Assembly (NCBI GenBank): GCA_002709695.1
Contig: PAQF01000070.1
Span: 1-32,080, forward strand
Direction of reading: 5' to 3'
Length of the DNA stretch: 32,080 nucleotides
From: Candidatus Poribacteria bacterium
GTDB lineage: Bacteria; Poribacteria; WGA-4E; UBA9662
Positions 6,287 through 25,755 of the stretch are shown in pieces. How positions within the stretch are numbered: position 1 is the first letter of the stretch; each line of letters starts with the position of its first letter. The notes below the pieces were generated by a model, which saw only the letters and a program-made list of their open reading frames with translations, was not told where the DNA came from and made no database searches. The position numbers and the translations under genes are program-made.

Positions 6287-7033
6287 TTGTCCGATTTACA
6301 GCAAAACAAATTTGAAATCGAGGTTTATGGCTACACCATCGTTGAAGATGTGCTAACTGAGAGTGTAGCTGTGGAGATGCGAGACGTTCTTACCTATTTA
6401 AACCAACAACATGGTACTGACCACCGACACCGTGGCACAGCACGTCATGTCGCTAACCTTCCTACTTACGATCCAATCTTCTTCCAAATTATTGACCATC
6501 AAAAGATTTTACCATTAATCGAGTGTTTCATGGGTTCTGATATAATCTTGGGAAGTCTGAATGCTCGCATTGTTAGACCAAACGACCCTGAACAACATTT
6601 ACACGGTGACATACCTCAACCTTTAATAAAGAAATCAGCGGAGTTCCCTGTAATGATGAATACTGTGTGGATGCTAGACGAATTCACACCAGAAATCGGT
6701 GCAACTCGAATTGTGCCTGGCTCCCACAAAAGCGGTTACGCACAGACACCAGAAGGAATGAAAATTAAAAATGTTCAGGCAGCGACCGCACCAATAGGGA
6801 GTGTGCTGATTTTTAATGGGCAATGTTGGCATGGTGGTGGGGCAAACACCAGTGATAGAGACAGACACGCCTTATTTGGTCACTATCGCAACGGAAGTTG
6901 GATGAGATTTCAATGCGACCCCCATCACCGATTTAAACCCGAATGGCTAAACTTACTAACCGAGCGACAAAAAAAACTGTTACGAATGGAAAATGGCCTT
7001 GAGAGCAAAATTGCAGCGGACTTCTATGAATAG
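6287..7033 (+). CDS. Phytanoyl-CoA dioxygenase (PhyH) family protein
   Basis: A 248-residue Fe(II)/2-oxoglutarate oxygenase. The facial triad is intact: L-H-G-D (His106, Asp108) and W-H-G-G-G-A-N (His182), with Arg191/Arg193 as candidates for binding 2-oxoglutarate. The family strand R-I-V-P-G-S-H lies at 141-147, and the early G-Y-T-I-V-E-D-V segment at 15-22 is typical. The start is TTG: AAGGA at 6276-6280 lies 6 bases upstream, and no in-frame ATG exists before the conserved N-terminal segment. There is no signal peptide. It shares little with the next gene beyond the family motifs, so the pair looks like two old paralogues with different substrates and not a recent duplication. Confidence 0.9.
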   Translation: MSDLQQNKFEIEVYGYTIVEDVLTESVAVEMRDVLTYLNQQHGTDHRHRGTARHVANLPTYDPIFFQIIDHQKILPLIECFMGSDIILGSLNARIVRPNDPEQHLHGDIPQPLIKKSAEFPVMMNTVWMLDEFTPEIGATRIVPGSHKSGYAQTPEGMKIKNVQAATAPIGSVLIFNGQCWHGGGANTSDRDRHALFGHYRNGSWMRFQCDPHHRFKPEWLNLLTERQKKLLRMENGLESKIAADFYE

Positions 7034-8070: not shown

Positions 8071-8403
8071 AGATAGTGTGAAATTATTTAGGTATTTTGA
8101 AAAAAATCATTGAAGGATGTAGATCTAACCGGAAATTGGTTCACAGTTTTCGACATACAGACAAAACAACTCCTCGAGTTACTCCCACCTACTAGTTTGT
8201 CAATGTGCTTTATACGCTTTTACTGAATTTGTTAGGTGTTATGGATATATGGAATTACCACAACCTCATTTAGAAAAAATTAATCCGCGGGAAAACCTTA
8301 ACAAGAACTGAATAACAGTTTATTAGTATCCGCGAGTTTTTCGTGAATTCTTGGAACTTTAAGTGTAATTTAATCTGATTTTTTGCTTTCGACAGGAGAT
8401 ATA
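8071..8403. other. 333-base spacer, no gene seen
   Basis: The spacer separates the second PhyH gene of the pair from the sulfatase. It holds no reading frame I can support. TCCGCG occurs twice in the same orientation, near 8284 and 8331, which may be chance. The ribosome binding site AGGAGAT at 8394-8400 belongs to the sulfatase. A promoter for the sulfatase is expected here but none is obvious. Confidence 0.4.
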
Positions 8404-10095
8404 ATGGCTAATCCAAATGTACTTGTGATTTTGACCGACGACCAAGGGTGGGGTGATTTGAGTATTCATGGCAATACCAACTTAGATACACCCAATGTTG
8501 ATTCAATAGCACAGGACGGTGTTTTGTTCAATCGGTTTTACGTGTGTCCAGTTTGCGCGCCAACTAGGGCTGAGTTCTTAACGGGAAGATACCATTTACG
8601 CGGCCAAGTACATGGAGTTACTGAAGGGGCTGAACGTTTGTGCTTGAGGGAGAAAACTATTGCTGATACCTTCAAAGCTGCTGGTTACTCAACCGGTGCC
8701 TTTGGCAAGTGGCATAATGGAACACAGCACCCTTATCATCCCAATGCTCGCGGTTTTGACGAATTTTTTGGTTTCTGCTCCGGCCATTGGGGACACTATT
8801 TTGATGCTGAAGTAGAACATAATGGTAGATTTACGCGTGGAAAAGGCTATCTACCAGACGAAATCACTGATCGGGCGATAGATTTTATGGCGACCAACGC
8901 AGGTTTAAGTCAGCCGTTCTTTTGTTATCTGCCCTTTAACATTCCCCATACACCATTTCAAGTGCCAAATAGGTTTTACGAAAAATTTCGTAATTCGTCA
9001 ATTGAGATGAAAGCTACAAACCCAGAACATGAAGATGTAGAACGTACACGGTCGGCACTGGCACTGTGTGAAAACATCGATTGGAATGTCGGCCGGTTAT
9101 TGGCAAAATTGGATCAGCTTGGAGTTGCCGAAGACACTATTATCTTCTATTTTGGCGACAATGGCCCCAATGGAGCACGGTGGAATGGTGGTATGAAAGG
9201 AACCAAAGGGTCTACAGATGAAGGAGGTGTACGCGTGCCGGGATTAATGCGTTGGACCAAGCAAATCCAACCAGGTACAGTTATCGAGGAAATCGCTGGA
9301 GGGATTGACTTGTTGCCGACTTTGGCCGATATGGCAGATGTTGAAGTATTAAGTGAAAAACCTCTGGACGGTTGTAGTTTGAAACCGTTGTTAATTAATA
9401 AAACGATGAATTGGTCGGATCGGATGATTTTCACGCATCAACGAAACGCAATAAGTGTTCGTAACCAGCAGTTTCGCTTGGATGCGAAAGGCAAATTGTA
9501 CGATATGCTTACCGATCCTGGTCAGACGAGAGATGTCTCGGATGATTTCCCTGAAATGCAAGATGTACTGACAAAAGCCGTAGATGAATGGTGTGCAGAA
9601 GTATTACCTATACAGGACGATCGACCTTTTTCTGTTGGTTATTGGGAATCCACTCCACTTCCAGCACGAGATGGTGTGCCTCATGGTGGAATTCGGCGAA
9701 GTGCAAAGGCCCCCAACTGCTCGTATTTTACTAACTGGACTAAAACCCGCGAGTCTATAACTTGGGATGTTATTGTTGGTACTGAGGATAATTATGAAGC
9801 TATAGTTTATTATGCCTGTCCTGCTGAAGATATTGGGGCAATTGTAGAGTTAAGCTTCAATGGAAAAACTGTGCGAGGACAAGTTACCGAGCCACATGAT
9901 CCGCCACTGGTAGGTGAAGTTGAAGATCTTTTCCCACGTGGCAGTGAGTCTCTCGTCAAAGATTTTAAGCAGCTCACGTTGGGAACCATCCATATGGTAT
10001 CAGGTCGTGGCACGTTAACATTACGTGCTCTTGATATTCCTGGTTCTCAAGTAATGGATGTAAGAAGGGTGATGTTAATTAAAAAGGAAGAGTGA
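8404..10095 (+). CDS. Arylsulfatase A-like sulfatase with extra C-terminal domain
   Basis: A type I sulfatase of 563 residues that should hydrolyse sulfate esters, probably on a glycan. The metal-binding L-T-D-D-Q-G-W-G-D is at 10-18. The formylglycine motif C-A-P-T-R (51-55) has Cys51 as the residue to be converted, followed by F-L-T-G-R. G-K-W-H (101-104) and F-G-D-N-G-P further on complete the active site. After the catalytic domain, from about residue 430, lies an extra segment with T-W-D-V-I-V and Y-Y-A-C-P near its start and T-E-P-H-D-P-P-L-V-G in its middle, probably a beta-sandwich. No signal peptide precedes the first catalytic strand, which begins by residue 5, so it appears cytoplasmic; most related sulfatases are exported. 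AGGAG lies 5 bases before ATG. The propeller lipoprotein gene follows after 85 bases. Confidence 0.95.
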   Translation: MANPNVLVILTDDQGWGDLSIHGNTNLDTPNVDSIAQDGVLFNRFYVCPVCAPTRAEFLTGRYHLRGQVHGVTEGAERLCLREKTIADTFKAAGYSTGAFGKWHNGTQHPYHPNARGFDEFFGFCSGHWGHYFDAEVEHNGRFTRGKGYLPDEITDRAIDFMATNAGLSQPFFCYLPFNIPHTPFQVPNRFYEKFRNSSIEMKATNPEHEDVERTRSALALCENIDWNVGRLLAKLDQLGVAEDTIIFYFGDNGPNGARWNGGMKGTKGSTDEGGVRVPGLMRWTKQIQPGTVIEEIAGGIDLLPTLADMADVEVLSEKPLDGCSLKPLLINKTMNWSDRMIFTHQRNAISVRNQQFRLDAKGKLYDMLTDPGQTRDVSDDFPEMQDVLTKAVDEWCAEVLPIQDDRPFSVGYWESTPLPARDGVPHGGIRRSAKAPNCSYFTNWTKTRESITWDVIVGTEDNYEAIVYYACPAEDIGAIVELSFNGKTVRGQVTEPHDPPLVGEVEDLFPRGSESLVKDFKQLTLGTIHMVSGRGTLTLRALDIPGSQVMDVRRVMLIKKEE

Positions 10096-10180
10096 AACTT
10101 TAGTGCTTTCTGTGTAAAAATTACATCTGAGTATAAACAATGAATAGTTTACAGGATTGCAAGAGAAAGAGCAGGACATT

Positions 10181-13100
10181 TTGGCTATTGTAATTAGGAC
10201 GCGATCAAATTTAAATAATCTGCTGTTGTTATCATTATTCGTTCTAGTCAGCTGTACTACATTTCTATCGGATAATCAGTCGGATTCACCATTCGAACAC
10301 ATGCATTCCAGAGAGGCCCAGCATGCAGAGTTATCTCTAATTAGTAACCAGGTGAACTGTATTTCCACCGATTCTCAAAACGTATGGATCGCAACAGTTG
10401 CAGGTGTCTCACGCTGGAATGGAGATCTTGAGAAATGGGTTCACTATACTAAGGAAAACGGCTTGGCAAATGATAAAGTAAACGCTGTTGCTGTTGATGG
10501 AAAGTGGGTTTGGTTTGCTACAGATGAAGGAGTGAGCCGCTACGACTTAAAAATGAACACTTTCCAAACTTTCCGAAGTATTGATGGATTAGCGAGTAAT
10601 CAAGTGTCATCCATTGCTATAGATGGAAAATATGTGTGGTTTGGAACTTCTAATGGACTAAACCGCTATGACAAAACCATTGACAGTTGGGCTGTTCGTA
10701 CCCGAAAAGATGGTCTGGCAAGCAAAAAGATTACAACAATAGCCGTTGAATCCGAATATGTGTGGGTTGGCACAGGGAAAGAACCTCGCGATCCTAGAGA
10801 TCGATGGGAAGATCCTGAGTCTAGAGGAGGAGGGGTAAGTCGGTACCATAGAGCCACTGATTCTTGGAATAACTACACGAAATCAGATGGATTGGTAGAT
10901 AATGAAGTTTCTACTATCACGGTGGCTGAAGATAGTGTTTGGTTCGGAACTCAAAATGAAGGTGTCAGTCAATACAATAAAGTTGATCAGACCTTCATTA
11001 AAACATTTACAAAAACTGATTTGCTCAAAAGCAATATGATTACTTCTATTTACGCTGATGGGTTCCAAATATGGTTTGGCACTGCCAATGCAGGAGTACA
11101 TCGTTTCATCAAACCTGCTAATACTTGGATTCATTATACTAAAAATGATGGGTTGGCGAGCAATCATGTAACCTGGATTACAGTACAAGGAAATAGGGTC
11201 TGGTTTGGAAGTAAAGAAGATGGAGCAAGTTACTTTGATAAAGTGAGCGGTAAATGGAAGATATATAGGCAAGCCGATTTTCTTGCAGACAACGATGTTC
11301 GCGATGTAACACAAGATGCAAATGGAAACCTCTGGATGGCAACCATAGCAGGGATTTCTATTTACCGACCTGAGACTAGTAGTTGGGAAGTCATTTCTAG
11401 GGAAGATGGACTGACAACGCCATATATCATGTCGGTGCATGTTGAGGAAAGTAAGACGCCTCTCAAAGAAACAGGAGCCCAACAGATTTGGATTGCTACT
11501 GATCGAGGACTTGGCTCACGAAGTCTCAACGGTGGGGAGTGGACTTTTTATGCGCCTCCCCGATCACAGATTAAGGGTGAATCGTTTGTGAGAGCTTTTG
11601 ATATGGATGAGGGTATTTTATGGCTTGGTACTAGTTCAGGCCCTGCTATGTATGATACAGCTACTCAGACTTGGTCACAACTTGTTACGCCAGAGAGCCA
11701 CCCAGATACACTTGTGTCGTCCGTACACTCACATAATGGAGTAGTCTGGTTTGGCGGGTTGAATGGTATCTGGCGATATTCGGTTGCTGATTCACATATG
11801 CGCCATTATACCGAGGGGTTACCCCATATTTACGTGAATGTGTTATTGGACACAGGGAGTATGCTTTGGGCTGGGACACGTCAGGGCCTTGCTCGATATG
11901 ATGAGTCTCAGGAAAAGTGGATACCTGTGGGATTCAATTCGCAATTACCATGTCCTAACATCACTGCGCTTGCTTTTCAGAACGGAACCCTCTGGGTAGG
12001 CACACCACATGGGATGGGACGGTATGTTATCGCTGAGGAGTCTTGGAGTTCTATACCTAATATTTCATACAATATTCGTGACATCTTTTTTGATACGACT
12101 GGAAAACTCTGGTTAGCAACATCTATTGGCCTAGTCGAATATAGTACTCAAGAAGGAAAGCAAACGCTTCATCAATCTCGCCCTGTACGTAAACCAATGT
12201 TGGAACCTATGGTATCAAACATCGAATTTGACGGCGATTATGTTTGGTTCAGTAATTGGACTTCTTCACCAAATGGTTGTATATTGCGCTATCATCGCCC
12301 CACAGGAATGTGGCGCCGGTTTACGCGAATGGACATTTTACAATCTCCTCAAAAGCAGTCCATGACTCAGGTCCGTTGGATCTACGTGGATGAAGATGCA
12401 GTCTGGTTTACCACTGATTTAGGAGCACTTCGATACAATAAAAGGGACGATACATGGAAGCATTTTACAGTACAAGATGGACTTGCAACTAATGATTTGG
12501 ATAAGATTGATGCTAGTTCACACGGTGTCTGGGTAATTTCAATGATGGGCATCGAACTGAGTCGTTATGATAAAGCAACTAAAACGTGGAATGTAATTGC
12601 TCCCAAAGAACAAGTTCAACTGGAACGGATAAATGCTCTGGCAGTTGATGAATCGGAGGTATGGTTTGGATCGAGCCGAGGGTTGCACCTTTACAACGAA
12701 ATTACAAATGAATGGCGAGACTTGACACCGAGAGATGGACTGGCAGGCAGGGGAGCGGAATGGATAACCATAGACGATGATTTTATCTGGATCGCACGTT
12801 CAGAATGGGATAGAGACAGTAACCGAGCATTATCACGCTACGACAAGAAAGCAAAAAAGTGGCGGACATTTTCAACCACTGATGCACTGGTTGCAGACGA
12901 TATAGTACGAATTATTGCAACAGATGACAATGTATGGATGCTCTACAGGCCTTGGGATGATGAGGGTGTTACTCGATTTAACAAACATACTGGAGAGTGG
13001 ACTACAATTCGGTCTGGTAGAGGTACCACTGAACTTGCTGTTGATAAAGATTATCTGTGGTTAGCTGCACCGAGTGATGGTCTCAAAAGATTTCACTTCG

Positions 13101-14287
13101 CATCCCGTACTTGGACGTCATTTAGAGATCGGAACGGTTTATTGCACAATCATGTAAGCGAACATGCTCTCAAAGTTGATGAGGACTACGTGTGGGTAGG
13201 TACACTTGGTGGATTGTCCCGGTATGACAAACAGGAAGAATCTTGGATTTCCTACACAGCTTTAGAGACTCTAAAAGGGCATGCGATTCGCGCAGTGGAT
13301 ACAGATGAGCGTTTCGTCTGGATAGGTAGCAACAAAGGTCTTTCTCGTTATGATAAAGTCTTGGGAACTTGGAACAACTATCGGCAAGAAGGAGGTCGGC
13401 AGGAAATTCGAACACACGGCGGTCGGTGGGATGATTGGATACCAGACTTCGAAGACACTATATCTGATAATGTAGTGAGTTCTATTGTGGTAGATGCACA
13501 ATATGTTTGGATTGGGACCCATGACGGAGCGAACCGATTCGATAAAATTGCTAATCGTTGGGATCAATATAAAACCGAACATGGCTTACCCGCAAATAAT
13601 GTAACTTCTGTCAGTAGTGATGGTAATAATATTTGGGTGGGCACCAATTTTGGAATTGGAAAATATCCCCGAGCTTCGGATGATTTAAATGCGTGGATTA
13701 GTTATACATCCGGCACTGAAATTCAGCCCTCAGCTGTATCCAAAGAGTTCGCAGAATCACTAGTTACAGATGAAGTCAGATGTGTAGCTGCCAGCAAGAA
13801 AAACGTGTGGGTTGGAACACAAAGGGGAGTGAGCCGATATAATATCGGCAAGGATACTTGGAAGACAATCACAGAGAAAGATGGACTCGCCAGCAATGAA
13901 GTTAGCTGTATCACTATTGACCACATTCGAGTGTGGTTTGGAAGTGACCGAGGTGTAACTGTTTACGATGAAGAAACAGAAAACTGGATTACTTACACAG
14001 ACCACAGTGGACTTGCGAGCAATCAGGTCACTACTATTGGAATTGATGGAATGGGGGTTTGGATTGGCACCTATGACGCAGGAGTAAGTTGGTTCAATAG
14101 AAAGACCAATCATTGGACAACTTACACCAGAGAAGACGGACTTGCCCACAATGGCATTCTCTCTATAGCTGTAGATGATCTTTACATCTGGTTCGGAACT
14201 CATCGTGGATTGAGCCGTCTAGATAAACGTACGAATACCTGGACGACCTTCACAGAACACTATGGTCCGGAAGATATTTTAAGGTAG
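10181..14287 (+). CDS. Giant multi-propeller lipoprotein (about 29 Reg_prop-like repeats)
   Basis: A secreted lipoprotein of about 1368 residues made almost wholly of beta-propeller repeats. The N terminus has two Arg, a hydrophobic run and the lipobox L-V-S-C, so signal peptidase II should cut before Cys and attach lipid. I count about 29 units of roughly 45 residues built on V-W-[FIV]-G-T-x-x-G-[VL]-S-R-Y-D, then W-x-x-Y-T-x-x-D-G-L-A-S-N-x-V. These are the two-component-regulator propeller units usually found in the sensors of hybrid kinases. No membrane segment, kinase or response-regulator domain follows; the protein ends soon after the last blade. Twenty-nine units would make about four seven-bladed propellers. 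I prefer the TTG at 10181, with AGGA 4 bases upstream; an in-frame TTG at 10157 would add eight residues. The next gene begins 14 bases after the stop, so both are probably one operon. The likely role is ligand binding or protein scaffolding at the cell surface or periplasm. Confidence 0.9.
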   Translation: MAIVIRTRSNLNNLLLLSLFVLVSCTTFLSDNQSDSPFEHMHSREAQHAELSLISNQVNCISTDSQNVWIATVAGVSRWNGDLEKWVHYTKENGLANDKVNAVAVDGKWVWFATDEGVSRYDLKMNTFQTFRSIDGLASNQVSSIAIDGKYVWFGTSNGLNRYDKTIDSWAVRTRKDGLASKKITTIAVESEYVWVGTGKEPRDPRDRWEDPESRGGGVSRYHRATDSWNNYTKSDGLVDNEVSTITVAEDSVWFGTQNEGVSQYNKVDQTFIKTFTKTDLLKSNMITSIYADGFQIWFGTANAGVHRFIKPANTWIHYTKNDGLASNHVTWITVQGNRVWFGSKEDGASYFDKVSGKWKIYRQADFLADNDVRDVTQDANGNLWMATIAGISIYRPETSSWEVISREDGLTTPYIMSVHVEESKTPLKETGAQQIWIATDRGLGSRSLNGGEWTFYAPPRSQIKGESFVRAFDMDEGILWLGTSSGPAMYDTATQTWSQLVTPESHPDTLVSSVHSHNGVVWFGGLNGIWRYSVADSHMRHYTEGLPHIYVNVLLDTGSMLWAGTRQGLARYDESQEKWIPVGFNSQLPCPNITALAFQNGTLWVGTPHGMGRYVIAEESWSSIPNISYNIRDIFFDTTGKLWLATSIGLVEYSTQEGKQTLHQSRPVRKPMLEPMVSNIEFDGDYVWFSNWTSSPNGCILRYHRPTGMWRRFTRMDILQSPQKQSMTQVRWIYVDEDAVWFTTDLGALRYNKRDDTWKHFTVQDGLATNDLDKIDASSHGVWVISMMGIELSRYDKATKTWNVIAPKEQVQLERINALAVDESEVWFGSSRGLHLYNEITNEWRDLTPRDGLAGRGAEWITIDDDFIWIARSEWDRDSNRALSRYDKKAKKWRTFSTTDALVADDIVRIIATDDNVWMLYRPWDDEGVTRFNKHTGEWTTIRSGRGTTELAVDKDYLWLAAPSDGLKRFHFASRTWTSFRDRNGLLHNHVSEHALKVDEDYVWVGTLGGLSRYDKQEESWISYTALETLKGHAIRAVDTDERFVWIGSNKGLSRYDKVLGTWNNYRQEGGRQEIRTHGGRWDDWIPDFEDTISDNVVSSIVVDAQYVWIGTHDGANRFDKIANRWDQYKTEHGLPANNVTSVSSDGNNIWVGTNFGIGKYPRASDDLNAWISYTSGTEIQPSAVSKEFAESLVTDEVRCVAASKKNVWVGTQRGVSRYNIGKDTWKTITEKDGLASNEVSCITIDHIRVWFGSDRGVTVYDEETENWITYTDHSGLASNQVTTIGIDGMGVWIGTYDAGVSWFNRKTNHWTTYTREDGLAHNGILSIAVDDLYIWFGTHRGLSRLDKRTNTWTTFTEHYGPEDILR

Positions 14288-14301: not shown

Positions 14302-16254
14302 ATGAAAACCTATAACTGGAAAAACCTCCTTCCCATCTTTCTTGTGTTCTGGGCTTCCTGTTTTATTACTTTTCGTGCTCAAGCGGAAGATGTATACAGC
14401 TTGCTCGGTAAGCTTTTTCTATCTGGACGTGTTGAATACGATTTTACAAATAGACGCGACTTCCTCTTGGATACCGAAGAAGAATTAGTTCGGCAGAACG
14501 ATTTTGACTTCGACCGTCTATTTCGACGCGGATTTCACAGCGTCATGGTTATTGAAGAAACTGCAGGCAATACTAAAAACATCCTTTCCTTAGGGGATGT
14601 ACCTACCACGTTTACAAAGTTCACTTTTGATTCCGTTGATCTGAGTGGTGTTCGCTGGGAGGTTCGCTCGGAAAAAACTGATTGGACATTCCTAATGGTT
14701 CCAGGTGTGCTCAATGGTATTCCAAATCAAGGAAACTTGGAAGGTTCAGGTATTGGATTGAGAGAAGTTACGAAAATTGGCAGATCCAAGATAGGCATTT
14801 CCTCGTACTTTCGTGAAACACCTGTGTGGGCATTAGATATGGAAACTAACTTCGCAAACTATGGATTAAAAGCTGAATTTGCCATAACTCCTAAGAGTGA
14901 TTTTAAAAAAGATACCAGGTCGCGTTTCGACGTTATGACTACCGTATTTAAAGCCTTTCAAACTGTTGGAGATACAATCTTACAAGCGGAAGCTTTTCGC
15001 GTTGGTCCTGGTTTTGATGCATCTAGGTCAGTCAGTGACAATGATGATGGAGATCGATACACTGATAATACACCGCTAGACCCACCTTCCTTAATTATTC
15101 CTGGAGATCTTGATAAAAATAACAATGGTATCTTTGACTATGAAGATGATATTTTACTTTTCGATATTGATGAAGATTTCTTGGACGAAGTCGACAAAAA
15201 TAATAATGGTATTAGGGACGAAGAGGAAAACGATAAAGATCCCAATTATGAATTTGACGTTGGACTTCGAGGGATACATTTGCTCATGAAACATAAGAAA
15301 AAGCATCAAAATAACTCTATTGATCTTGATATAGGACTCCAATTTGAAGAAAATCTCAGAGAAAAAATAACCGGAAGCCTATCGTCTGCAACTAAGGCAT
15401 TTGCTAACTTAGTTTACAAAACAAAATTGGCAGATCACACATCTATGGTAATTGATAATGAATTGAAGTTAGTGAAGGACAGCATTCCCGACGAGACTTG
15501 GTATTTTGCTGGTTTCCTGAACGAAACTGAGGAACGCCTTTATCGTGAGCAACCAAAGATTAAAGAGTTAGAAAATAGAGGGGATGTTCTATTTTTCAAT
15601 GTAGACAGTCGTATTGAAGTCGAAAAACGACGTAGGGACACGTTGTTGATGCAGAATGATCTGATCAACACTTCCAAAATTACTTGGGAATATTCGGGGA
15701 TTGAGCAAATGGTAACTACAGGTCGTGTGAAATTCCAATATGACTTTGATTTTGATAAGGACAATGAGCATTACGAAGTTGGCATTTTCAAAACTCTGTA
15801 CCGCATACGTCCATCCAAGCCACTCGAAATAAACCCGATGTTCAAGTACACTATCCGCAATGGTTTTCGGATGGCAGAAGATCATTATGAAAATCTTGAA
15901 TTGATAGAAAAACTTGATGGCAAGCAAGTCTCGAAACGCATCCAACTACGTCAGATTGAACAAGCAGATGTACGTGACATGGCTTCTGCTATTATATTAA
16001 AAATTGTCTACCAGTTTACCAAAACTATAAAGATTACTGGAGGAGGACAAGTACTACTCTACAATGATATGCTTGAAGACGAGAACGATTTTTTACGCCA
16101 AGCACTATTGGCTGAAATGGAAAAGAATTTTGTGGCCTACAAAAAACCTCTTTTTCTGCATATCGGTGCACGATATATTGACCAACGGGCCGCCGGAACC
16201 GTTAACGATCGAAATTTCATGGAAACTTTCGTGCGCGTTTTTGGGAAATTTTGA
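14302..16254 (+). CDS. Secreted, probable outer-membrane beta-barrel protein with calcium-loop-like segments
   Basis: I do not recognise a named family. The 650-residue protein starts with a signal peptide (K-rich start, hydrophobic core, A-Q-A before E-D at about 28/29). The body alternates polar and hydrophobic residues as in transmembrane beta strands, and the chain ends in V-R-V-F-G-K-F, a terminal Phe with alternating residues as in outer-membrane proteins recognised by the BAM machinery. Between about 246 and 312 lies an acidic insert with three Asp/Asn-rich loops (D-N-D-D-G-D, D-K-N-N-N-G-I-F-D, D-K-N-N-N-G-I-R-D-E-E) like dockerin, EF-hand or thrombospondin type 3 calcium loops. It starts 14 bases after the propeller gene, so the two proteins probably act together. 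A pore, anchor or receptor partner for the lipoprotein is the simplest reading, but it is inferred. Confidence 0.75.
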   Translation: MKTYNWKNLLPIFLVFWASCFITFRAQAEDVYSLLGKLFLSGRVEYDFTNRRDFLLDTEEELVRQNDFDFDRLFRRGFHSVMVIEETAGNTKNILSLGDVPTTFTKFTFDSVDLSGVRWEVRSEKTDWTFLMVPGVLNGIPNQGNLEGSGIGLREVTKIGRSKIGISSYFRETPVWALDMETNFANYGLKAEFAITPKSDFKKDTRSRFDVMTTVFKAFQTVGDTILQAEAFRVGPGFDASRSVSDNDDGDRYTDNTPLDPPSLIIPGDLDKNNNGIFDYEDDILLFDIDEDFLDEVDKNNNGIRDEEENDKDPNYEFDVGLRGIHLLMKHKKKHQNNSIDLDIGLQFEENLREKITGSLSSATKAFANLVYKTKLADHTSMVIDNELKLVKDSIPDETWYFAGFLNETEERLYREQPKIKELENRGDVLFFNVDSRIEVEKRRRDTLLMQNDLINTSKITWEYSGIEQMVTTGRVKFQYDFDFDKDNEHYEVGIFKTLYRIRPSKPLEINPMFKYTIRNGFRMAEDHYENLELIEKLDGKQVSKRIQLRQIEQADVRDMASAIILKIVYQFTKTIKITGGGQVLLYNDMLEDENDFLRQALLAEMEKNFVAYKKPLFLHIGARYIDQRAAGTVNDRNFMETFVRVFGKF

Positions 16255-16619: not shown

Positions 16620-17420
16620 ATGAACCCAGAAGTTGCACGAGAAACTCGAGAAAAAATGTTGCAAGATGGATACTGTGTTATCCCAGATATTCTGAGCCAA
16701 GATTTTCTGCGAGAACTTCGTCAAGAATCGAATCGCTTAAATGACACCATGGAACATCACCCTGATACTAAGTACCAAGGTACACACCTTGGTATTCGTT
16801 ATGAAGATAATGAAGTGATGTGTAGACTGGCAGAATGGGAACCAGCACGACAAGCCCTAGAAGAAATAGGTTTTGGGGATTTTGTTCATGCTGGAAGTCT
16901 GATAATTTTAACCAAAGAGCCGTTCGCACCTGCTCTCTATTGGCATCAAGACTGGATGCGGTGGGAAGACCCTCTCAGTTGCTCACCTTGGCCTCAAACT
17001 ATTTTTCTCTCCTATTATTTGGAGGATACTGCTATTGAAAATGGTTGTTTCAAAGTCATTCCTGGCACACACCTGAAACGTATTCCATTGCATGATCAAC
17101 TAGTTACCGCGCATGAACAAGGAGCAAGGTTCATCGAAGAAGACCACCCTATTATGTTCAGCGACCATCCAGATCAGGTAGATTTATTGACCAAGGCAGG
17201 AGCTTTGGTACTGGGAGATGCTCGAGTTTTACACGCGGCACGAAAAAACCAAACAGCAGAGCGCAGGAATTTGTTGTTATTGTGGCATAGTCGCCCGGAA
17301 ACGATCCCTGACTATTGGGATAGAGAAATTCCTCCAGCAGTTGCAGAACGAGATCCCGAAGCAACTTATTCAGGATCTCGAATTCCTGGTCAATATCTCC
17401 AACCCAAAATTATTGACTAG
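16620..17420 (+). CDS. Phytanoyl-CoA dioxygenase (PhyH) family protein
   Basis: A 266-residue Fe(II)/2-oxoglutarate oxygenase with all key residues. D-G-Y-C-V-I-P-D (16-23) opens the fold. W-H-Q-D-W (108-112) gives His109 and Asp111, V-L-H-A-A-R-K-N gives distal His205, and Arg215/Arg216 are candidates for binding 2-oxoglutarate. V-I-P-G-T-H at 146-151 is the core strand. The H-Q-D-W form with a following R-W-E-D is seen in PhyH proteins of unknown substrate. There is no signal peptide. A good Shine-Dalgarno sequence (AGAGGA, 7 bases upstream) supports the ATG. A second, unrelated 2OG oxygenase starts 41 bases after the stop, so the two are likely co-transcribed and may act in sequence on one compound. 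Confidence 0.92.
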   Translation: MNPEVARETREKMLQDGYCVIPDILSQDFLRELRQESNRLNDTMEHHPDTKYQGTHLGIRYEDNEVMCRLAEWEPARQALEEIGFGDFVHAGSLIILTKEPFAPALYWHQDWMRWEDPLSCSPWPQTIFLSYYLEDTAIENGCFKVIPGTHLKRIPLHDQLVTAHEQGARFIEEDHPIMFSDHPDQVDLLTKAGALVLGDARVLHAARKNQTAERRNLLLLWHSRPETIPDYWDREIPPAVAERDPEATYSGSRIPGQYLQPKIID

Positions 17421-18780: not shown

Positions 18781-21636
18781 ATGACTTCTGGTTCAACGTT
18801 AATCCTAGATGGGAATCGCTGGTTGTTGGATATAGATCCTGATAACACAGGAAGAGATCTACTATGGTTCAATAAAGCTACAAATAATGCTAAACCTGCT
18901 AAAGTACCGGGTATTATTCAGGAGATCTTTCCAAGCTACCATGGAGTAGTTTGGTATTGGTGTGAGTTTTCTCCACCAGAGAATCTCCATGTAGAAGGTC
19001 GATATCTACTAAAATTTTGGCAAGTAGATTATTTGGCTGACGTTTGGGTTAATAATCTACACGTGGGGCAACATGAAGGTACAGGAGATCCATTTGTATT
19101 CGACGTAACTGAAGCTATTGAGTCACAGGCTATTAATCGAGTTGCTGTGCGTGTGCTGAACCCCAAAAACGAACCGATAGATGGAATCCGGTTGATGGAA
19201 ACACCAGTTTGGGCTCGTGGAATTCCATGTACACCAGGTCTTGCTCTTAACTATGGTGGCATTACTGATTCTGTTGAGTTACTTATTTGTGCTGTTGTTC
19301 GTGTTGAGGACTTATTCATTAGCCCAAACTGGGAAACAGGAAATATTCATGTTCAAGCTAATCTGCGAAACGCCGGGAAAAAGACAGTTTCAGGCCAAAT
19401 TGTATTTGCCGTTTCTCCAAGTACTGGAGGACAAACCTTAAATACTGTACAAATCAACCAATCTTTACCTCCGGGAGATACTTTAATTGAAACCGAGTTA
19501 ACGGTCGTCTCTCCACACTTGTGGGAACTTAATGATCCATACTTATATCGTGTGACAGTTAAAGCTGGTGTGGAAAACTCTAGGTCGGCAGATGAACAAT
19601 CAGCTCGATTTGGGTTTCGCCATTTTTGTTTTCAGGACGGTTACTTTCGCCTAAACGGTCGGCGGATTTTCGTAAAATGCGCCCAGACAGACGCAAGAGC
19701 TCCAATCGGGCACCTCGTAGCACATGACCCTGATTTCCCTCGACGGGACCTTATTAATTGCAAAGCAACAAGACATAATATGATCCGCGCATTCGGTGGG
19801 CAAATCCCCCGCTATCAAATAGAATTGTGTAACGAGATTGGTCTGTTAGTTTATCAAGAACATGCTGCTGCATGGCGGATGGAACCATCTTCACAATTAG
19901 CTGGCCGTTTCCAACGGTCAGTTCAGGGAATGGTAAAACGCGATCGAAACCATCCAAGTGTTGTAATATGGGGTATTCTAAACGAAACTCATAGGGGGCC
20001 CGTTTATGACCAAGGGGTTAATGTGTTGCCTCTGGTTCGCGAACTTGACGACACACGTATAGTGTTACTTAATAGTGGTGACCACGAATTTTCTGGTACA
20101 GGCAGAGTCATTGCGGATAAGGAACTCAAAGTGTGGGAAAAAACCTTTTACGACATGCATCCTTATAAAACAGTGCCTCACCGTGCAGATGTAATTGCTG
20201 CTTTACGAGGGCTGAATGGAGATGATAAGGAAAAACCTATATTTCATTCGGAGGGTGGGATTGGAAGTGCAATGGACTTAGTGCGGCTAGTTCGCCATTA
20301 TGAACAATTAGGAAAAACCTTATGTGAGGATGCAGTTGTAGCAAGTCAATCGCTTAATAAGTTCATGGGTGATTGGGAACGCTGGGGGTTAGGGGATACT
20401 TTTGCTAATCCCGAAGACTATTTTAGACAATGTTTAGCGTGGATGGCTGATGTCCGAAAGTTAGCGACTAACGCCCTACGCGCCAATCCCAATATGATCG
20501 CTTATAATATTACTGGGCTTGTAGACCCAAGCACAACAGGCGAAGGTATGCTTGCTAGCACTTTTCGTGAATTAAAGCCAGGGATAGTTGATGCTATGTT
20601 CGATGCTTTTGCACCATTGCGTTGGTGTTTGTTTGTTGAACCTGTACAAGTTTATCGCGGGCGGAAGGCACATTTTGAGGCTGTTTTAGCTAACGAGGAT
20701 GTACTTTCACCTGGAGAGTATCCCGTCCGATTCCAAGTGGTAGGACCACGCAATGTCAACGTATTTGATCAAACGATTATAATCAAGATTCATGATTCCA
20801 AGACCAAACGAGAACCGAAATTCGCGTTTTCCGTTTTTGCTGAGGACATATTAATAGACGGAGCATCAGGACAATATCGATTTTTTGCGACTTTTCAGCA
20901 TGGGGCTGCAGCTGCTGGTGGAAATGTGGAATTCTATGTGTCTGATGCTACTGAGATGCCTGATGTTCAAACCGAGATTGTTTTGTGGGGAGATGATGAT
21001 GATCTAGTTAAATGGTTGGAAGCAAATAATATCAAAACAAAGCCGTTTATTTCAGGTTCAAATAATTCACGAGATGTCATTTTGGTAACCAACTACCATG
21101 GATCTAATGAAACTGATGCTTTTAAAGAGTTAACGAGGCATATAGCTTACGGTTCACACGCTATTTTTTTATCACCAGATGTCTTCAATAAAAATAATGA
21201 CCAAACGCATTGGTTGCCACTGAAAAACAAAGGGAAGCAGGTTGATTTACCGGTGTGGTTATATCACAAGGACGACTGGGCTAAAAATCATGCTATCTTT
21301 GAAGGATTACCCACTGGTTGTGTATTAGATCACACTTTTTATCGGGAGATACTGGGTAGTAAGGCTTTTTCAGAACAAGATACACCTTCAGAGGTTGTTG
21401 CAGGAGCTATAAACACCTGTTTGGGATACAGTTCTGGAATCTCGATTGGTGTGTATGATCTTGGTGCCGGAAGGTTTACCATCAACAGCCTACGAGTGCG
21501 TCCAAATCTCGGAAATGATCCTGTAGCGGAACGGTTACTCAGAAATATGTTGAACTATGCAGCGCAACATATTTCTCAAACACCTGTAGTTTTGACAGAT
21601 GATATTGAAAAGCAACTTATAGCAATCAAATACTAA
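18781..21636 (+). CDS. Glycoside hydrolase family 2 (beta-galactosidase/glucuronidase-like)
   Basis: A 951-residue retaining glycosidase. Order of domains: sugar-binding jelly roll (about 1-170), immunoglobulin-like sandwich (about 171-280), TIM barrel (about 281-640), then a C-terminal region. The GH2 acid/base is Glu402 in W-G-I-L-N-E-T, after the N-H-P-S-V-V-I-W strand, and the likely nucleophile is Glu491 in F-H-S-E-G-G, so the enzyme should be active. The last 180 or so residues (V-I-L-V-T-N-Y-H-G-S onward, ending near L-L-R-N-M-L-N-Y-A) look like a Rossmann-like glutamine-amidotransferase-type domain of the sort found in some beta-galactosidases. There is no signal peptide, so it is probably cytoplasmic. 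GAGGAG lies 8 bases before the ATG. It is first in a three-gene operon. The sugar specificity (Gal, GlcA, Man, GlcN) cannot be settled by eye. Confidence 0.93.
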   Translation: MTSGSTLILDGNRWLLDIDPDNTGRDLLWFNKATNNAKPAKVPGIIQEIFPSYHGVVWYWCEFSPPENLHVEGRYLLKFWQVDYLADVWVNNLHVGQHEGTGDPFVFDVTEAIESQAINRVAVRVLNPKNEPIDGIRLMETPVWARGIPCTPGLALNYGGITDSVELLICAVVRVEDLFISPNWETGNIHVQANLRNAGKKTVSGQIVFAVSPSTGGQTLNTVQINQSLPPGDTLIETELTVVSPHLWELNDPYLYRVTVKAGVENSRSADEQSARFGFRHFCFQDGYFRLNGRRIFVKCAQTDARAPIGHLVAHDPDFPRRDLINCKATRHNMIRAFGGQIPRYQIELCNEIGLLVYQEHAAAWRMEPSSQLAGRFQRSVQGMVKRDRNHPSVVIWGILNETHRGPVYDQGVNVLPLVRELDDTRIVLLNSGDHEFSGTGRVIADKELKVWEKTFYDMHPYKTVPHRADVIAALRGLNGDDKEKPIFHSEGGIGSAMDLVRLVRHYEQLGKTLCEDAVVASQSLNKFMGDWERWGLGDTFANPEDYFRQCLAWMADVRKLATNALRANPNMIAYNITGLVDPSTTGEGMLASTFRELKPGIVDAMFDAFAPLRWCLFVEPVQVYRGRKAHFEAVLANEDVLSPGEYPVRFQVVGPRNVNVFDQTIIIKIHDSKTKREPKFAFSVFAEDILIDGASGQYRFFATFQHGAAAAGGNVEFYVSDATEMPDVQTEIVLWGDDDDLVKWLEANNIKTKPFISGSNNSRDVILVTNYHGSNETDAFKELTRHIAYGSHAIFLSPDVFNKNNDQTHWLPLKNKGKQVDLPVWLYHKDDWAKNHAIFEGLPTGCVLDHTFYREILGSKAFSEQDTPSEVVAGAINTCLGYSSGISIGVYDLGAGRFTINSLRVRPNLGNDPVAERLLRNMLNYAAQHISQTPVVLTDDIEKQLIAIKY

Positions 21637-21674
21637 AATTCAGTTATATCTATTATGTTAAGGTGAGTCGGATT

Positions 21675-22736
21675 ATGAAATCAGATTTGATTAAAACTTT
21701 AAATGCAATCGAACATCCTATTTTGGAATTAGAATCTCACGGAGGATCAATATTAGTGTTGCCTGACAGTGGCCGTGTTTTAGGGTTATTCGATAGAAAC
21801 AATGAAAATTTTTATTGGGTTAACCCAGATCTTACTGATAATACAAAAGCAAAGGCTCTCTTCTCATCTGCAGGTTGGAAAAATAGCGGAGGAGACCGAA
21901 CTTGGGTAGCTCCTGAGATTGAATTATTTTTAAAAAATGTTGACAACGAACAAGACATGGTATACGAAGTTCCATCATCCATTGATCCCGGTAATTATAT
22001 GATTCAAGAACAAAACGATGAGAAAATCGTTTTGTCTAATCAGGCGAAAATTATTCTCCATCGCTTGAAGAAAGAGTGTGAAATCCTAGTTACAAAGGAA
22101 CTCCGGTTAATCCCTAATCCATTGCGGTATGATGATGACACGGAAAATCTTTTTGGGTCACTGGGGTATATTGGATATGAGCAAGTTACCATCCTAAAAT
22201 TCGTTTCCCCTTTGGATCCAGAAATTCAAATTGGAATCTGGAACCTTATGCAAGTTCCAGCAGGTGGACTAGCCATAATTCCAACCTTACGACAAAGTTA
22301 TCCACGTGATTATTTTTCGGAAACGGGACCTGACCATTTATCTGTTTCTCCCAAATCGATTCAGTTTGTTATGGATGCCAAAGCACAACATAAAATTGGT
22401 GTAAAGGCAACATCTGTTCTTGGGAGGATGGGATATATACGTTCGATCGATACAACAAGCGAAAGCTTAGTCGTTCGAAACTTCTCTGTCAACCCATCTG
22501 GCCAATATATTGATGTACCATGGGATTGTCCAGATGAGTTTGGGTATGCAATACAATGTTATAATGACGATGGAAATTTGGGCGATTTTGGAGAACTTGA
22601 GTACCACTCCCCCGCCATTGGTGGTAACACAGGAAACGCCACTTACGAAGATAGAAGCCAGGTATGGGCTTTCTTGGGGTGTGTAGAACTAGTGGATGAG
22701 GTCGCTCAGCGTCTACTTGGCTTTGATATCAAATAA
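21675..22736 (+). CDS. DUF4380 / galactose mutarotase-like protein
   Basis: A 353-residue protein whose N-terminal strands (L-E-S-H-G-G-S-I-L-V-L-P, about 19-30) and S-G-G-D-R-T-W-V-A-P-E (71-81) resemble DUF4380 proteins, which share the galactose mutarotase beta-sandwich. It may bind or epimerise a sugar; no catalytic activity is shown for the family as far as I know. There is no signal peptide. I chose the ATG at 21675, with AAGG about 11 bases upstream; the in-frame GTG at 21663 overlaps that ribosome site. The gene begins 38 bases after the GH2 stop and 19 bases before the likely start of the esterase, so it is in the middle of an operon. A role in handling the product of the GH2 enzyme is the natural inference. 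Confidence 0.72.
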   Translation: MKSDLIKTLNAIEHPILELESHGGSILVLPDSGRVLGLFDRNNENFYWVNPDLTDNTKAKALFSSAGWKNSGGDRTWVAPEIELFLKNVDNEQDMVYEVPSSIDPGNYMIQEQNDEKIVLSNQAKIILHRLKKECEILVTKELRLIPNPLRYDDDTENLFGSLGYIGYEQVTILKFVSPLDPEIQIGIWNLMQVPAGGLAIIPTLRQSYPRDYFSETGPDHLSVSPKSIQFVMDAKAQHKIGVKATSVLGRMGYIRSIDTTSESLVVRNFSVNPSGQYIDVPWDCPDEFGYAIQCYNDDGNLGDFGELEYHSPAIGGNTGNATYEDRSQVWAFLGCVELVDEVAQRLLGFDIK

Positions 22737-22755
22737 CCTACTAAGAAATACGATT

Positions 22756-24753
22756 ATGGATCCTTCGCAAAGTTACCTCAAGTTTATCCGTATGTACGCA
22801 CAGAAACTGGTAGCAGAACATACCTTGCCACGGGACAAAGAAGAATGGATTAGAAATCGCAAAGTAATTCGGAAAAACTTACTCAAAGCTGTAGGTGGTT
22901 TCCCAGAAAAACGATGTGATCTAGATCCGGTCGTTGTAGAAAAACTTGATTTTGAAGATTACCACATTGAAAAAATATTGATACAAACTCTCCCTGATGT
23001 ATGGATGACTGGCAATGTTTATGTACCTAATGGTTTAGGTCCATATCCGGCAATGCTATGTGTGCATGGGCATTGGCAAGGAGCCAAGCAGGATCCAGTT
23101 GTACAAGCACGATGTTGTGGCTTGGTTAAACAGGGATTTGTTGTTCTGGCCGTGGATGCATTTGGTGCAGGGGAACGTGGTATTAGTACTTCGCTCGGTG
23201 AATATCACGGAGAGATGACAGCTGCTACGCTTCTGCCGACGGGACAACTTCTTGCAGGTATTCAAATGTACGAAAACAGCCGTTGTGCAGATTATCTCCA
23301 GTCACGTACGGATGTAGACGGAGAGCGTCTCGGTATTACAGGAACAAGCGGAGGTGGTAATCAAACCATGTATGCAGGTGCAATAGAGGAACGTTTTGGC
23401 GTTGTTATCCCAGTTTGCAGTGTCGGTAACTATCAGGCTTATTTAGGAACGGCATGTTGCATGTGTGAGCTGATTCCTGGGGTGTTGACTTTTACTGAAG
23501 AATGGGGAGTTTTGGGATTAATAGCACCACGTGCACTTATGATTATCAATGCAACGCAAGACGCTGTACAATTCTCTGTAGAGGAGGCAAAGAAAAGTGT
23601 GGCAAAAGCAAAGACGATATTTTGCTACTATGGAGTTGAAAGAAATATTCGTCATGTTCCGATAGAGTCGCAGCACGATTATAATAAGCCTATGCGAGAG
23701 GCAATGTATGGTTGGGTTTGTAAACACCTCAAAAAGGAAGGGGATGGTAGCCCAATTGACGAGCCAAACATTGAAACGGTTGCACCTGAGATTCTACGAT
23801 GTTTTGCGGACGATAGTCGTCCAAAATCATACGTTACTATTCCCAAGCTAGCTCGTCGGTTTTCGCGTCAGGCCCTCAAACATCATATTATCCCAAATCA
23901 TAAGAAATCTTGGGAAGAAGAGCGCGATAGTCGACTGGATGTACTCAAAGAGATAGTTGGAATTTATGATGAATTTGTCACGGTGCCGGTACCAATACCA
24001 ATACCTGTTGACCCTTCACAGCAGAACGGGGGCGTTAGATTTGAGCTGGAGCCTGAACCTGGTATACGTTGTCTCCTTGAATGGGATGAAGGTCTAAACC
24101 AAGAAATTGCCTTAACGGTAGGATTTGAAAGTGAAGTCTTTAACACTGAAGAAGCAGCTTATTGTCAGAAATATGGTGTCGATCGGTTGAATTTGACATT
24201 GCGGGCAACAGGATGCTACAGCCCTAAACCAAATCGAATCGGCAACGCAATAGATCATAATACAGGACAATGGGGAGCATGGGTAGGACGCCCACTGGTT
24301 GGGCAATGGGTGAAAGACATCCAGATTGCATTAGCTTGGATAGAAGAGTCTTATAACACATATCCTCAAGTAACACTTGTCACAAGAGAAAATGCATTCA
24401 TTCCGGGCGCAATTGCTGCCGCTTTAGAAAATCGCATTCACCGTGTAGTTGGTTTGGATTGTCCTTTGACCTTACAAGCCAACGACCGTTACGGAATTGG
24501 ATCTCTTGGTGTATTGTTTCCAGGTATGTTGCAAATGGTTGGCGACATCGATCACTTATGTGCCTTGATTTCTCCTAGACCTCTGTGCTTGGTTGCTGGA
24601 AAGAATATGCAGGGCGAACAATTGACGGATACAATCCTAGATAAAACTCTTAAATATGTTTCTGCTATATACGAACTGAATAATTCAGAGGGGCTAAGTA
24701 TCATATCAGCTGAAAACAAAAAGAAATGGCCGCAACAGATATTTGGCACATAA
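22756..24753 (+). CDS. Acetylxylan-esterase-like protein with two alpha/beta-hydrolase domains
   Basis: A 665-residue protein with two hydrolase-like halves. The first (about 60-330) is a complete alpha/beta-hydrolase: V-H-G-H-W oxyanion region (103-107), nucleophile Ser198 in T-G-T-S-G-G-G, Asp269 in T-Q-D-A and His307 in S-Q-H-D-Y. This fits the acetylxylan esterase/dienelactone hydrolase-like group. The second half (about 400-665) keeps the strand pattern and an S-P-R-P-L strand, but its nucleophile elbow position reads T-R-E-N-A-F with no Ser, so it is probably catalytically dead. No signal peptide is seen. I place the start at the ATG at 22756, 19 bases after the DUF4380-like stop; an in-frame ATG at 22696 would overlap that gene by 41 bases. 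It likely removes acetyl or other ester groups from the sugar that the GH2 enzyme cleaves. Confidence 0.85.
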   Translation: MDPSQSYLKFIRMYAQKLVAEHTLPRDKEEWIRNRKVIRKNLLKAVGGFPEKRCDLDPVVVEKLDFEDYHIEKILIQTLPDVWMTGNVYVPNGLGPYPAMLCVHGHWQGAKQDPVVQARCCGLVKQGFVVLAVDAFGAGERGISTSLGEYHGEMTAATLLPTGQLLAGIQMYENSRCADYLQSRTDVDGERLGITGTSGGGNQTMYAGAIEERFGVVIPVCSVGNYQAYLGTACCMCELIPGVLTFTEEWGVLGLIAPRALMIINATQDAVQFSVEEAKKSVAKAKTIFCYYGVERNIRHVPIESQHDYNKPMREAMYGWVCKHLKKEGDGSPIDEPNIETVAPEILRCFADDSRPKSYVTIPKLARRFSRQALKHHIIPNHKKSWEEERDSRLDVLKEIVGIYDEFVTVPVPIPIPVDPSQQNGGVRFELEPEPGIRCLLEWDEGLNQEIALTVGFESEVFNTEEAAYCQKYGVDRLNLTLRATGCYSPKPNRIGNAIDHNTGQWGAWVGRPLVGQWVKDIQIALAWIEESYNTYPQVTLVTRENAFIPGAIAAALENRIHRVVGLDCPLTLQANDRYGIGSLGVLFPGMLQMVGDIDHLCALISPRPLCLVAGKNMQGEQLTDTILDKTLKYVSAIYELNNSEGLSIISAENKKKWPQQIFGT

Positions 24754-24954: not shown

Positions 24955-25755
24955 TTAAGTGAGTTCTACAACGTCTTTTTTGACGATTTCTTTGATATGA
25001 TTGTAGTGGGCGTGGCTCATCAACTCCTTTGTTTCAGGCGACAATCGGTCTTGAAGAATTTCTGGGACAGATGGTTGGTTTTTGAACTGGGGTCGGTAAC
25101 GCAACACCAGCGTGCGGCGCAGTCGATCCGTAGGATTCCATTGTAGTGTACCATGAACTAGCATTTCAGTTATTATTACTGCATCTCCTGCCCTTGGGGT
25201 GATATTGGTTACTCCAGCAGGTAGATCCTCTTGAGTGGAAATGATCCCATTGTTGAATAGCTCCGCAGGGCGCTCAAATGTCGCTTTGTGTGAACCTGGG
25301 ACAACTAACAAACCACCATCACCGGGAAAAACATCATCGAAATAGGGAAAAATCACAAAATCATCGCAAAAAATACGTCCCTCCCGAGTGTCAAAACGCG
25401 TGCTCTGCCAACCATAGTCCTCGCGAGCACAGTGTAGGTGAAACGGTTTGTGCTTGTGACTGTCTACTAGCAATGTACCTCGGCTAAAGGCTGGTCGATC
25501 ATGAGTGAATTCCTTAATAATAGGCCACAAACACGGATGCACAACCAAAGCTTCTAGTGCTTTGTCAAAAGCAAAACCATTGGCGTAATACTTTCCGTCT
25601 TCAGAGCATGAAAAGCCTTCCGGAAGCTGGTCTGCAGGAGTTGTTATGTAACGGTCAACAGCCGCACGGGCAGCCACCAATTCGCTATCACTAAGTACAT
25701 TAGGAATGTGCAAATAGCCATTGATATCAAACAAATAACGCTGTTCGGGGGTCAC
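24955..25755 (-). CDS. PhyH-family oxygenase with a variant iron site
   Basis: A 266-residue protein with the PhyH opening (F-D-I-N-G-Y-L-H-I-P-N-V, 9-20), core strand V-V-P-G-S-H (151-156) and distal site M-L-V-H-G-T-L-Q-W (His201) followed by R-R-T-L-V-L-R-Y. The first metal motif is unusual: H-L-H-C-A-R-E-D (106-113) has His108 but Ala where the acidic residue of H-x-D should be. Either Glu112 or Asp113 substitutes, or iron is bound by His alone with an open site, or the enzyme is inactive. The start is GTG: AGGAG is 7 bases upstream. An ATG lies between them but in another frame that ends after ten codons. The gene is divergent from the LamG gene at 26016. Confidence 0.85.
   Translation of the reverse strand: MTPEQRYLFDINGYLHIPNVLSDSELVAARAAVDRYITTPADQLPEGFSCSEDGKYYANGFAFDKALEALVVHPCLWPIIKEFTHDRPAFSRGTLLVDSHKHKPFHLHCAREDYGWQSTRFDTREGRIFCDDFVIFPYFDDVFPGDGGLLVVPGSHKATFERPAELFNNGIISTQEDLPAGVTNITPRAGDAVIITEMLVHGTLQWNPTDRLRRTLVLRYRPQFKNQPSVPEILQDRLSPETKELMSHAHYNHIKEIVKKDVVELT

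Follow-up and report, generated by a model that had tools for sequence, protein, structure and literature searches.

The window analysed here, 32,080 nucleotides that make up contig C70 of a 5.2 Mb Poribacteria genome (G000), encodes a lipoprotein of 29 propeller blades in which the propeller of two-component sensors is reused as a lipid-anchored module. We put at roughly 60% the probability that this protein is a receptor or scaffold anchored at the outer membrane, in a functional pair with a secreted, probably β-barrel partner, and the co-inherited partner gene is the strongest clue to its function. The lipoprotein frame is open on the forward strand from 10157/10181 to 14287, giving 1368 amino acids from the TTG at 10181, and the partner gene begins 14 bases past the stop codon. 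The initial annotation of this DNA described the propeller repeats of the lipoprotein, and was silent both on the adjoining co-inherited gene and on the phylum-wide fixed blade number. The features of the two genes are as follows.

10181..14287, + strand: 29-blade Reg_prop lipoprotein, 1368 aa, TTG start, in-frame alternative TTG at 10157
10181..10255, + strand: lipoprotein signal peptide and lipobox LVSC, Cys25 codon at 10253-10255, Cys invariant in 39/39 orthologues
10337..11284, + strand: blades u1-u7 (residues 53-368), probable ring 1, the most conserved block (identity 0.91) with nearly fixed spacing
11285..12196, + strand: blades u8-u14 (residues 369-672), probable ring 2, variable, mean column identity 0.73, large length variation
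12197..14284, + strand: blades u15-u29 (residues 673-1368), a block of 15 that probably forms two rings (7+8 or 8+7)
14302..16254, + strand: partner gene, 650 aa secreted protein, probable outer-membrane β-barrel, co-occurring with the lipoprotein
14302..14385, + strand: partner signal peptide, cleavage AQA|ED placed by eye
15028..15258, + strand: partner acidic Asp/Asn-rich, Ca-binding-like stretch (residues 243-319), nearly invariant in 13 diverse homologues
16222..16251, + strand: partner C-terminal strand ending in Phe (39/39), compatible with an outer-membrane insertion signal

Applying a threshold of E <= 1e-30 to both genes, we found the lipoprotein together with its partner in 69 of 85 Poribacteria genomes and neither of them in the other 16. 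A laxer search of the 16 pair-less genomes recovered partial Reg_prop matches only and no full-length counterpart; one of them (G014) retains a frameshifted and truncated partner remnant at L126:7969-8380, and in another (G069) just the last 61 residues of the partner are left. By our own count over families and genera, the pair has been jointly lost at least seven times. Incompleteness of metagenome-assembled genomes could lie behind some joint absences where the pair genes are linked, but a single-contig genome (G046) is among them, so assembly gaps cannot explain every case. In most genomes the two genes stand next to each other, with other neighbours that vary, and both are also kept where they are unlinked (genomes G023, G021, G002, G003, G004, and G035; loci L089/L090, L091, L133/L134, L135/L136, L140/L141, and L142). 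In G023 a single contig holds both, separated by about 1 Mb, and a short propeller ORF sits beside the partner. In genera g3, g5, and g7 a single partner gene follows three 29-blade homologues in tandem. Given this strict co-inheritance, it is very likely that the two proteins act together as a single device of the cell envelope, presumably as a physical complex. Poribacteria are known chiefly through metagenome-assembled genomes, and the pair gives the phylum a two-protein system open to experiment. In the neighbourhoods viewed, no gene for an enzyme, a transporter or a sulfatase was conserved beside the pair. A sulfatase gene does lie upstream of the lipoprotein gene in the window (8383-10095); a functional link to it was rejected, because the remaining neighbourhoods viewed have different genes upstream.

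The lipoprotein occurs in 17 of the 22 genera of the phylum. Poribacteria are known for sponge symbionts, and a large lipidated protein might be an adhesin or host-contact protein for sponge association, with the partner as an anchor only; presence in so many genera makes a host-specific role less likely, and we regard this explanation as improbable.

The partner is probably an outer-membrane β-barrel, as judged from its sequence, in which two marks of such barrels are present, a signal peptide recognised by eye and a C-terminal aromatic residue. Strand periodicity was in slight excess over shuffled sequences (z 1.9, and 0.5 to 1.6 in four relatives), and the structure model was unusable (pLDDT 31). 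Searches for a known family returned no NCBIfam or PDB match, profile search included, and no significant Pfam match, the best barrel-type Pfam match being SlpA_C at an E of only 0.07. Pfam likewise gave no TonB-dependent transporter domain (plug or TonB receptor) in 13 members of the partner family, and the idea that the partner is a fragment of SprA was rejected when profile comparison found nothing. The C-terminal half of the partner is related to a family of about 1110 residues (hhalign probability 98%), which also contains the acidic stretch. Proteins of this larger family (L116:3443-6766, with relatives in L115 and L117-L124) have a lipoprotein-like signal and a C-terminal Phe; matches to them occur in all, or almost all, of the 85 genomes, with two copies in some, and their gene is sometimes found 10-25 kb from the lipoprotein/partner pair.

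The N-terminus of the lipoprotein, LAIVIRTRSNLNNLLLLSLFVLVSC, is a lipoprotein signal with a positively charged n-region, a hydrophobic stretch, and the lipobox LVSC at Cys25, which together with the invariance of the Cys is what is expected of an SPase II substrate. Lipidation is therefore predicted, as the initial annotation had proposed, and we infer an outer-membrane location. Two further proposals of that annotation, that the protein contains no membrane helix and no kinase, also agree with our results: beyond the signal no helix is visible on inspection of the sequence, and Pfam searched down to E 10 gives neither a kinase nor a Y_Y_Y domain, with just propeller-like or insignificant families besides Reg_prop. 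A signalling domain hidden in the last 150 residues had been suggested as a point to check; the region consists of blades throughout, and hence there is no hidden C-terminal domain, residues 1321-1368 being blade u29 and a short tail. A pattern-limited scan of species genomes, directed beyond the phylum, returned Poribacteria only. Judging by titles, none of the papers in the literature searched that name both Poribacteria and propeller concerns this protein.

The blades are of the four-strand Reg_prop type, run to the C-terminus, and place the protein in the family (PF07494; 130 bits against a Pfam cut-off of 20.4, E 8e-40). A motif scan identified 28 regular blade anchors and an irregular one at residue 918, and an HMM made from the protein's own units again gave 29, so that the earlier estimate of about 29 repeats becomes an exact count. 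Applied to 39 orthologues that share 58-80% identity with the protein, the unit HMM detected 29 blades in 38; in 20 distant homologues of 31-36% identity it detected 27-29. Trp is conserved in the columns of all 29 blades: depending on the column, it is present in 37-39 of the 39 orthologues and in 14-20 of the 20 distant homologues, and the exceptions among the latter are mostly other aromatics, apart from the u12 column, which is Leu in six. Blade-to-blade spacing is near constant in the orthologues except after u8 to u14. The conservation of the Trp columns in both sets of relatives and the near-fixed spacing argue that the 29 repeats are not a product of chance. On the basis of these alignments, blade number is fixed at 29 across most of the phylum. 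Repeat proteins usually vary their repeat number readily, and a count frozen across a phylum and its distant homologues implies a definite quaternary job.

By sequence as well as by fold, the first match of the lipoprotein is the periplasmic sensor of BT4663 (PDB 4a2l/4a2m; phmmer E 3e-32 against 4a2l), with PorZ also found. Both BT4663 and the lipoprotein are built of Reg_prop blades; in BT4663 two seven-blade rings are joined to a kinase through additional domains and a membrane helix, whereas the lipoprotein consists solely of 29 blades and a lipid anchor. The absence of Y_Y_Y and kinase matches at E 10 and the extension of the blades to the C-terminus set it outside the hybrid two-component sensors (HTCS). 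These results uphold the earlier description in that the protein consists of propellers throughout, is predicted to be lipidated, has no kinase, and is related to the part of two-component sensors that binds ligand. Because the solved structures nearest to it come from the periplasmic part of hybrid two-component systems, the lipoprotein might be a detached sensor module that signals via a separate kinase or regulator. However, no kinase or regulator domain was present among the window proteins scanned or recurred in the neighbourhoods viewed, for which gene starts only were considered; none of four other Reg_prop proteins scanned in G000 is a kinase; and the lipoprotein is lipid-anchored without transmembrane contact. 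We thus consider a detached sensor very improbable. Two further Reg_prop proteins encoded in G000 (L128:2887-7551 and L129:3346-8835) carry C-terminal Ig-like and FlgD_ig domains, and one of the two has a weak match to the CHU_C type IX signal; propellers are thus probably also exported by the type IX secretion system (T9SS).

Conservation is unevenly distributed along the lipoprotein: mean column identity among orthologues is 0.91 in u1-u7 and 0.89 in u22-u29, and lowest, 0.73, in u8-u14, and orthologues differ after blades u8 to u14 by insertions that reach about 90 residues. The structure model, which covers residues 40-1193 and gives no ring coordinates (pLDDT 68, pTM 0.37), has mostly four strands per unit, and its confidence dips at residues 364-370 and 665-679, the ends of u8-u14, among other places. 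Ring limits were taken from conservation, spacing, and these confidence dips, from which we infer that u1-u7 form ring 1 and u8-u14 ring 2, leaving 15 blades that would probably divide as 7+8 or 8+7. The blocks delimited in this way are 7+7+15; the four seven-bladed rings plus one unit to which the initial annotation fitted the count would require u15-u29 to split as 7+7+1, which we consider possible but less probable. A periodicity test on unit-to-unit similarity, intended to read ring size, gave no lag-7 signal; similarity drops with distance and climbs again from lag 21 upwards, owing to the resemblance of u26-u28 to u1-u7.

Under the reading that we prefer, a receptor or scaffold paired with a probable barrel, the lipoprotein would be anchored at the outer membrane with two seven-blade rings followed by 15 blades, probably two more rings. 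The conserved rings (u1-u7 and u15-u29) would hold the architecture and the partner, and the variable ring (u8-u14) would face outward and bind a ligand. The partner might either anchor the lipoprotein or pass the ligand across the outer membrane. The ligand could plausibly be a glycan, as for the homologous sensor rings of BT4663, which bind disaccharides on their entry faces (PMC5121618); with no glycan enzyme conserved beside the pair, this proposal is drawn from homology and we advance it only tentatively. Surface lipoproteins of the SusD type and their SusC channels in polysaccharide utilisation loci follow the same two-gene logic, in that a lipoprotein is encoded beside a probable outer-membrane channel, but the folds are unrelated, the partner has no TonB or plug match, and conserved glycan enzymes are missing near the pair. 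A bolder and more doubtful extension is that an outer-membrane machine not described before, present throughout the phylum, has the pair at its core: an obligate complex of the 29-blade lipoprotein with a new channel family, in which the variable ring would select the substrate and the tandem homologues would give one common channel a choice of specificities.

A different precedent is BamB, the lipoprotein with a single 8-blade propeller ring in the barrel assembly machine. Lipoproteins of its type are lipidated propellers that act with an outer-membrane barrel, as the protein described here probably does; BamB belongs to another propeller family. The lipoprotein could by analogy be a periplasm-facing assembly or structural factor for the partner barrel, as BamB is or as LptE is for LptD, rather than a ligand receptor, and the obligate pairing with a probable barrel as well as an architecture that tolerates no blade gain or loss would suit such a role. 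With 1368 residues and 29 blades, however, it far exceeds the single ring of BamB, and both the faster-evolving u8-u14 with its large insertions and the tandem homologues per one partner fit recognition better. We therefore judge an assembly role unlikely.

The nearest kinase-free relative of the lipoprotein is PorZ (PDB 5m11), a surface protein of the T9SS with two such rings and no kinase (PMC5121618). Stand-alone Reg_prop propellers were thus already known, and the suggestion in the initial annotation of a distinct use of the fold finds no support in that form. PorZ, like the lipoprotein, has propellers without a kinase, and it is located at the cell surface; it differs in having 14 blades in two seven-blade rings, a C-terminal sorting domain, and an essential role in the T9SS, whereas the lipoprotein has 29 blades and a lipobox, ends without a C-terminal domain, and is absent from some genomes in which SprA is retained. 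One could suppose that the lipoprotein is the Poribacterial PorZ equivalent within the type IX machinery, given that it weakly matches the PorZ models (51 bits in Pfam and 84.9 bits, or about 85, in the NCBIfam equivalog NF052228), that PorZ is among its structure matches, and that a SprA-like protein occurs in Poribacteria along with dozens of C-terminal T9SS signals in each genome. The NCBIfam score, however, falls well short of the cut-off of 260, no C-terminal sorting domain was found with Pfam to E 10, the C-terminus being u29 with its tail, and the blade number is 29 rather than 14. All 16 pair-less genomes keep a SprA-like protein, which speaks indirectly against the pair being an essential part of the T9SS. 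An essential T9SS/PorZ role was rejected on this evidence, and equivalence to PorZ, largely refuted by the same 16 genomes, is in our view the least probable of the explanations considered.

The T9SS is often called Bacteroidetes-specific (PMC7463736). In our data SprA was matched in 30 of 30 Poribacteria genomes searched, mostly below the curated cut-off; G000 encodes a SprA-like protein of 2166 aa (L108:3090-9590, on contig C86) and has about 40 Por_Secre_tail matches.

Several other genes in the window were also noted. The gene at 17462-18289 matches the WelO5 family of carrier-protein-independent halogenases (PF22814, E 1.8e-23) and probably encodes an Fe/2-oxoglutarate oxygenase, and four phytanoyl-CoA dioxygenase-like (PhyH) genes are spread over the 32 kb (279-1103, 6287-7033, 16620-17420, and 24955-25755). 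A GH2 gene (18781-21636) is followed by two overlapping frames, a DUF6786 protein (21663-22736) and a glucuronyl-esterase-like hydrolase (22696-24753).
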